Source: an uncultured Desulfobacterales bacterium
GTDB taxonomy: Bacteria; Desulfobacterota; Desulfobacteria; Desulfobacterales; JAHEIW01
Assembly (NCBI GenBank): GCA_947259495.1
Contig: CAMYLV010000010.1
Span: 35,513 to 99,512, forward strand
Direction of reading: 5' to 3'
DNA length: 64,000 bases
The translations under genes were made by a program, and so were the position numbers. Below the pieces are notes generated by a model. It was not told the DNA's origin and did no database searches. It saw only the letters and a program-made list of their open reading frames with translations. Below, in pieces: positions 15,171 through 17,157 of this stretch (positions within the stretch are counted from its first letter, which is position 1; each line of letters opens with the position of its first letter).

Positions 15171-16430
15171 TTAGCTGCGCTGTGAGTTGGCCGCCATCGA
15201 TGGGTTTGAGAGCGTCTGGATGCGTTGCAGGACGGGAGGGTGGGAATAATTTAAAAACACATAAAACGGATGAGGGGTTAGATTCGATAAATTGTGAACC
15301 GAAAGTTTCTTCAGGGCGGTGACCATCGATCCGGGGTCCTTGGTGGTTTCAGCGGCAAATTGATCGGCTGCAGTCTCGTTTTTACGGGACCGGAGCTGCA
15401 TCAGGATGCTGACAAAAAAATCAATGGGTGCGTACAACATGGCAAAAAAGAGCATCCCGGCATAAACGGACTGCTGTGGCATGTAAAAGGCGTCGAAAAG
15501 CCCCTGATAGGTGATGAACTGCGCCAATAGAAACAGCATCAGTCCAGTTTGCAAAATACCCAGCATCAGCGCTTGGCGAATGTGCTTTTTTTTGTAATGC
15601 CCCATTTCATGGGCCAATATCGCTACTAATTCCTTAACCGTGTGCTGCTTTATCAGAGTGTCAAATAAAACAATCCTTTTGTGTTTGCCGAAACCGGCGA
15701 AAAAGGCATTTGATTTGGTGGACCGCCGCGAGCCATCCATCTGATAGATATTTTCCAATGGAAAATCAATGGCTTTGGCATACGATAAAATTGCCGATTT
15801 AAGTTCGCCTTCCTCCAGTGGCGTAAACTTGTTAAACAACGGCATAATCCAGGTGGGGGCAATAAACTGAACCGTCAGCATATACAGCGTAACCCCGATC
15901 CAGCAATACCACCAGGCATGGGGCCCGGCGTATTCGAAGAAAGCCAGGATGGCCGCCAGCAGCGGTGTGCCCAACAAAAGTGCCAGCAGTAAACCTTTAA
16001 GCAAATCCAGCATATAGGTTGCAGGAGTACTTTTATTGAAACCGAAGCGGGCCTCAATCACAAAGGTATGGTAGACGCTAAACGGCAATGATAGCACGGC
16101 TTTAAATAGCAATAGGACCCCGATGTAAATCAGGCCACTAAAGACCGGTCCCAGTCCAAAAGCGCGCACCCAGCGGTCCAGCAATGGAAATCCTTTGGCG
16201 AACCAGAAAACCAGCACAACAACGAGATTAAAAGCGGAAACGAGCCATCCGAATCGGGTATGCGCTTTGAGATAACGCTGGGATTGACGATACCGATCCG
16301 CTTCGTAAATGTTCGCAAAGCCCCTGGGTAGTTCAGCGCTGATGTTTTTTAGATTGAGTCCATCCGCAAGCAAATTCAATATAAAACCGGCAGTCAGGGT
16401 GCCGAGGATAATTAGGGCAATTTCGTTCAT
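15171..16430 (-). CDS. STE24-type M48 zinc metallopeptidase
   Basis: A 419-residue inner-membrane protease of the CAAX prenyl protease 1/STE24 family, in bacteria probably working on membrane-protein quality control. Several hydrophobic segments flank the zinc motif HEMGH (within ILAHEMGHYKKKH) in the C-terminal half; a downstream Glu in the RKNETAAD segment is a candidate third ligand. AAGGATA ahead of ATG 16430 supports the start. The FrnE/DsbA-family gene ends 69 bases upstream on the same strand, so the two are likely co-transcribed; an envelope protein-maintenance link is possible but inferred. Confidence 0.9.
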   Translation of the reverse strand: MNEIALIILGTLTAGFILNLLADGLNLKNISAELPRGFANIYEADRYRQSQRYLKAHTRFGWLVSAFNLVVVLVFWFAKGFPLLDRWVRAFGLGPVFSGLIYIGVLLLFKAVLSLPFSVYHTFVIEARFGFNKSTPATYMLDLLKGLLLALLLGTPLLAAILAFFEYAGPHAWWYCWIGVTLYMLTVQFIAPTWIMPLFNKFTPLEEGELKSAILSYAKAIDFPLENIYQMDGSRRSTKSNAFFAGFGKHKRIVLFDTLIKQHTVKELVAILAHEMGHYKKKHIRQALMLGILQTGLMLFLLAQFITYQGLFDAFYMPQQSVYAGMLFFAMLYAPIDFFVSILMQLRSRKNETAADQFAAETTKDPGSMVTALKKLSVHNLSNLTPHPFYVFLNYSHPPVLQRIQTLSNPSMAANSQRS

Positions 16431-16499: not shown

Positions 16500-17114
16500 T
16501 CAGGGGATGGCATGCTGCTGACGTATAAAATTTTTCAGGATATTGTAAGGTTGAGCCCCAACCAACGATTGTCTGCCAATTAAAAAAGTGGGTACCGCCG
16601 TGATGCCGGATTTATAAGCGCGCGCCCAATCACGGTCGATCGCTTCCTTAAAAGCCCCGGATTCAAGCACCTCGCGCGCAGCAGTGGCATCAAGCCCGAC
16701 CGACATGGCGATGCTCACCAGGGAATTCATATCAAAAATGTTGCGTCCCTCTGCGAAATAGGCCCGGAACACAGCATCATGAAACACCTCGCCCTTCCCT
16801 ATCTGCTCGGCCCATTTGCCCAGCTCCTGAGCGCGTCGGCTGTTATACGTCATTTGCCGATCGCCAAAGGGCAACTCCAGCTCCTGCGCCACTTGCTTTA
16901 GATGCGAAAGCATTTGGGCAATGTCGATATTGCGTCCGGAAAACAGATCTTTAAGGGTGCGGCCCTGCGGCGGGGTTTCCGGATGAAGCGGAAAAGCCAG
17001 CCATTGCACGCTGATCTGAAATTCGCGCTGCAACTGTTCAACACGCCCGGTGATGAAATAACACCAGGGTCAGATATAATCCGAGAATATCTCCAGCATG
17101 GGTAAGGTTGTCAT
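16500..17114 (-). CDS. FrnE/DsbA-family oxidoreductase, probable selenoprotein with in-frame UGA
   Basis: A thioredoxin-fold protein of the FrnE / 2-hydroxychromene-2-carboxylate isomerase-like DsbA group. Conventional reading starts at ATG 17033 and loses the active site. Extending the same frame upstream gives MTTLPMLEIFSDYI, then TGA (17070-17072), then PWCYFITGRVEQLQREF. Relatives have Cys-Pro-Trp-Cys here, so TGA stands exactly at the first active-site Cys (codon 15), giving U-P-W-C. A hairpin with GGG in its loop follows at SECIS distance (17037-17057). ATG 17114 has AGGGTG ahead. C-terminal features such as ITAVPTFLIGRQ (cis-Pro loop) are intact. Total 204 residues including Sec. It lies upstream of STE24. 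The alternative is a nonsense-mutated gene. Confidence 0.85.
17037..17072 (-). promoter_or_regulatory. Candidate bacterial SECIS element with its UGA codon
   Basis: Minus strand: UGA (17072-17070), 12-base spacer, then UUCAUCAC-CGGGC-GUGUUGAA. The arms pair at seven of eight positions with one U-U mismatch, and the five-base loop contains GGG, starting 20 bases after UGA. This fits the known bacterial SECIS layout (apical loop with G residues about 16-37 bases after UGA). A competing CCUGGUG/CACCGGG hairpin is possible but its loop lacks GG. Confidence 0.75.
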
Positions 17115-17157
17115 ATGGCACCCTATTAGATCGATTGTTGAAGCCAATGGCCATGCA

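Follow-up and report, generated by a model that had tools for sequence, protein, structure and literature searches.

The minus strand of the window (the whole 64,000-nucleotide stretch of DNA analysed here, from an uncultured Desulfobacterales bacterium) carries a gene that very probably encodes a cytoplasmic FrnE-type thiol-disulfide oxidoreductase of the DsbA family, in which the N-terminal active-site cysteine would be replaced by selenocysteine (Sec) through UGA decoding (U15-P-W-C18). We put the probability of this reading at about 0.96. A first-pass annotation had proposed a Sec residue in a FrnE/DsbA redox protein with the motif U-P-W-C, and the proposal is now supported by the Sec machinery of the genome, by the alternation of Sec and Cys codons among homologs and by a covarying hairpin downstream of the TGA. 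The features concerned are listed in Table 1.

Translation from the ATG at 17114 on the minus strand gave MTTLPMLEIFSDYI-TGA-PWCYFITGR... and continued to the TGA stop at 16502-16500, the TGA at 17072-17070 being the sole interruption of the 204-residue frame. These coordinates agreed with the earlier placement of a TGA in a minus-strand DsbA/FrnE frame reading SDYI-TGA-PWCYF. As had also been anticipated, automatic annotation would begin at 17033, since a plain ORF finder returned only a 177-aa frame from TTG 17033 to 16500. The expectation that readthrough would yield a full-length protein agrees with the DSBA homology, which spans the TGA. If the TGA were instead a true stop or a sequencing error, the locus would be a pseudogene or would produce only the 177-aa protein, a reading that draws on the ORF finder result and on the existence of TTG starts. 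This is very improbable: the shorter protein would be without the active site, a conserved hairpin follows the TGA, and the TGA is kept, with the frame otherwise intact, in dozens of species that were sequenced independently, at identities of approximately 74% down to approximately 35%. Standard annotation would thus shorten the frnE-like gene and remove its active site, which the Sec reading corrects.

Table 1. Features on the minus strand of the window (positions in window coordinates).
Feature	Position	Strand	Description	Basis
Predicted frnE-like selenoprotein gene	16500..17114	-	204 aa from ATG to a TGA stop; codon 15 is TGA, predicted Sec	Translation, Pfam DSBA, FrnE PDB matches
Predicted Sec codon, in-frame TGA	17070..17072	-	Motif DYI-U-PWC	Aligned-codon counts
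Putative Shine-Dalgarno region (approximate)	17118..17128	-	AATAGGGTGCC, before ATG	Sequence itself
Bacterial SECIS-like hairpin	17037..17057	-	5' arm UUCAUCAC (17057-17050), loop CGGGC (17049-17045), 3' arm GUGUUGAA (17044-17037)	7 pairs and one U.U; covariation
M48 CAAX-prenyl-protease/STE24-type membrane protease, downstream neighbour	15171..16430	-		PF16491, PF01435
Element 1, candidate small RNA or frnE leader	17440-17300	-	Promoter, palindrome, structured RNA, terminator	
Element 2, about 80 nt, directly before frnE	17265-17156	-	Promoter-like site, anti-Shine-Dalgarno-like CCTCCTTCAATCTCCTCG, terminator 17189-17166	

The predicted protein matches the Pfam DSBA domain (PF01323) over residues 7-197 with an E-value of 7.9e-38. 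Its thioredoxin-fold DSBA domain is accompanied by the other hallmarks of the DsbA family, namely a CxxC/UxxC motif (U15-P-W-C18) and a proline expected to be in cis (P175, in a VPT motif). Both Pro175 with its VPT motif and C18 were found in 71/71 Sec relatives. C18 is the single Cys of the protein, and U15 and C18 are its only redox residues. The nearest solved structures are those of Deinococcus FrnE (PDB 5cp1 and 5cnw, E about 1e-28), which places the protein in the FrnE subfamily; a match to 2-hydroxychromene-2-carboxylate isomerase (HCCA isomerase) came far behind (3e-6). The D. radiodurans protein (DR_0659) is homologous to the window protein over residues 7-195, and its CPWC aligns with UPWC, so that it has Cys where the window protein would have Sec. 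It also bears a C-terminal CX4C regeneration motif (PMC8945050), whereas the 204-aa window protein has no second Cys with which to form one; this motif is optional, occurring in many FrnE proteins and missing from others (PMC8945050). No NCBIfam model named the protein, the best (NF041057) scoring 39.7 bits, far below its cut-off of 190.

In the proposed mechanism, UGA codon 15 would be read as Sec by the ribosome, SelB-GTP-Sec-tRNA(Sec) being recruited by the SECIS hairpin that lies just downstream within the coding region. Sec15, through its selenol, would attack substrate disulfides and Cys18 would resolve the mixed selenenylsulfide. The most likely role of the protein is that of a cytoplasmic disulfide reductase or isomerase in which U15 and C18 would act as redox partners. 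Its redox activity, the direction in which it would work and its substrates are here predicted from sequence. A cytoplasmic location is likewise presumed, no signal peptide being apparent by eye.

Homologs of the gene are widespread and mostly keep the TGA. They were found in 112 of the 291 genomes of the order, nearly all matches having exactly one TGA, and in 82 of 395 genomes drawn across the phylum, most with one TGA; within the family, all five homologs found, the window's own included, have it. The Desulfosarcina widdelii homolog, at 58% identity, also has TGA at the aligned codon; its presence among the relatives suggests an order that is Desulfobacterales or near to it. Across 119 homologous loci this codon was TGA in 83, TGC in 26, TGT in 8, TGG in 1 and TAA in 1. 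An in-frame UGA is thereby aligned with the catalytic Cys of homologs, as in other bacterial selenoproteins (83 TGA versus 34 Cys codons). It had been stated beforehand that relatives with neither Cys nor Sec at this position would speak against Sec; close relatives carried TGA or Cys.

The UGA could in principle be decoded as Trp or Cys instead, by reassignment or near-cognate readthrough. One relative (L109) indeed has TGG at this position, and Cys misinsertion by the Sec machinery is conceivable, as that machinery can insert Cys in place of Sec under selenium shortage. Against this stand the Cys codons in 34 of the 36 non-TGA homologs, where Trp is not the usual residue, the use of UGA to terminate the frnE-like gene itself, and the dedicated tRNA-Sec and selABD genes of the genome, which together leave decoding as another amino acid a very slim chance. 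The TGG of L109 (genome G210) is accompanied by a largely retained hairpin, and a strong hairpin is retained in L116 (genome G087), which has TAA; these two loci are possibly recent loss-of-Sec mutations or assembly errors.

A tree of the homologs built with the Sec-codon column masked contained a main Sec group of 77 Sec rows, within which 5 Cys rows and the TGG row were nested. The nesting of these Cys rows suggests replacements of Sec by Cys inside the main group. Two smaller Sec groups were placed apart from it, one with the motif UPFCxIGKG; the deeper branches of the tree are poorly resolved. The predicted Sec forms dominate the FrnE homologs of the order, with apparent reversions to Cys nested among them; a Sec-type FrnE is thus the rule in the order, and a Cys-type one the exception. 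These several nested replacements offer material for testing why selenium is kept or lost. Genome G123 has two frnE copies, one with Sec and one with Cys (L110, L142); the Cys copy branches within the Sec clade, its SECIS stem has decayed, and by its sequence it is a recent Sec-to-Cys replacement. Loci L119-L122 and L141 form a second DsbA-like Sec group, with the motif UPFC[YWF]IGKG, which the tree separates from the window's group; its SECIS hairpin is similarly placed but of another type (GGCAA/UUGCC), e.g. GGCAA-GGGCA-UUGCC.

The hairpin following the window's TGA begins 12 nt after it and its loop 20 nt after it, exactly the layout described in the first-pass annotation. Folding energy was dropped as a criterion for a SECIS element: on its own the hairpin is a weak fold of -3.9 kcal/mol (z -0.5), no better than shuffles, and local folding of the window sequence prefers a different, more stable hairpin. 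The case for a SECIS therefore rests on comparison and covariation. The seven pairs of the stem were standard in 97.6% of cells over 72 distinct Sec sequences, compared with 53.4% in Cys homologs, and when the partner was shifted by 1-3 columns as a control, pairing reached at most 57.5%. The pair at offsets 20-30 was U-A in 64, C-G in 11, A-U in 1 and U-G in 1 of 77 Sec sequences and was never broken; it was intact in 72/72 distinct sequences, a value attained by 0 of 20000 shuffles, and its state requires at least 10 changes on the tree. Viewed from the protein, the silent third position of codon +6 is thereby coupled to whether codon +10 specifies Ile or Val. The codons of the loop region (ACC, GGG) are nearly fixed in Sec sequences and vary freely in Cys homologs. 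With G residues in a small apical loop (CGGGC) 20 nt from the UGA, and with this covariation, the hairpin has the features of a bacterial SECIS. An Rfam search of the region gave no match.

The assembly containing the window (4.44 Mb, 69 contigs, 97% complete) encodes, as judged from its sequence, a complete Sec system. Searching it for selA, selB, selC and selD had been suggested at the outset, and all were found, selC being the tRNA-Sec gene. The latter lies on the window's contig, about 7.5 kb past the window end (C10:107008-107101); it scored 75.2 bits against a gathering threshold of 47, and ARAGORN gave the anticodon TCA. On other contigs are selA (614.9 bits), selB (358.3 bits) and selD (358.7 bits), all above curated cut-offs, and selD holds an in-frame TGA of its own (CGUAAK). 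With selA found in 271 of 291 genomes of the order, its co-occurrence with the TGA form says little. No selA match was obtained in five genomes, 69-91% complete, that carry the TGA form, which is attributed to missing sequence in these incomplete assemblies.

The window gene is a well-supported example of a selenoprotein family known since 2005, whose group, COG2761, we take to be the FrnE COG. The Sargasso Sea survey of that year reported nine DsbA-like selenoproteins of COG2761 with a UXXC motif (PMC1088965). Further members were later found in Anaeromyxobacter, Desulfovibrio desulfuricans and Desulfotomaculum (PMC1794560), and by 2016 the family was known from 41 organisms, among the commoner bacterial selenoproteins (PMC5029168). 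A 2026 inventory distinguishes form 1 (PF01323, UxxC) from form 2 (DxxUP) (PMC13188914). Since these four reports already describe DsbA-like selenoproteins, the novelty of the present gene is lowered. Through its PF01323 match and UPWC, the window protein has the features of the 2005 family (PF01323/COG2761 with UxxC). Form 1 likewise has the DSBA domain, UxxC, a SECIS just after the UGA and widespread Cys homologs, and at the level of these traits no clear difference from form 1 (representative NIP15863.1) was found. The window motif D-Y-I-U-P fits the DxxUP of form 2 (PF01323; PMC13188914) too, but the inventory assigns form 2 to the crotonase/enoyl-CoA hydratase family, and Pfam found no such domain in the window protein. 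The name FrnE is not used for the DsbA-like selenoprotein in surveys such as PMC1088965 and PMC5029168.

The protease gene follows frnE, with which it shares the strand, at a distance of 69 nt, and its product matches PF16491 (CAAX-protease N-terminal domain, 5.9e-53) and PF01435 (4.4e-38). The earlier identification of a STE24 protease beside frnE therefore held. As a putative operon partner it is kept in about one third of loci: of 30 with flanks of 1.5 kb, 10 have the two genes adjoining, in the genus and some other families, and the protease is absent beside frnE in L027, from the same family as the window genome. A functional link between frnE and the protease is possible.

Two conserved elements lie between a PilZ gene and frnE, on the frnE strand, neither with a credible Rfam match. 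Element 1 has a near-consensus sigma70-like promoter (TTGACA-N16-TATACT, 17435-17408) overlapping an operator-like palindrome (ATACTAC-ACC-GTGGTAT), followed by a candidate RNA, some 95 nt long, with three helices and an unpaired CTTTCCTCT, whose terminator helix covaries. This conserved structured RNA candidate may be newer than the selenoprotein finding. That the upstream RNA, with its promoter, operator-like palindrome and terminator, controls the Sec-FrnE gene is a speculative and unlikely proposal; it would make the RNA a riboregulator or sRNA not described before and linked, in Desulfobacterales-type bacteria, to a selenoprotein. Of 194 genomes of the order, 14 carry element 1, some with only short matches, and it sits mostly beside frnE; in G070 a copy neighbours a different gene. 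Element 2, with the promoter-like site TTGACA-N16-TATTTT, is found at full length in just four of the family's genomes.
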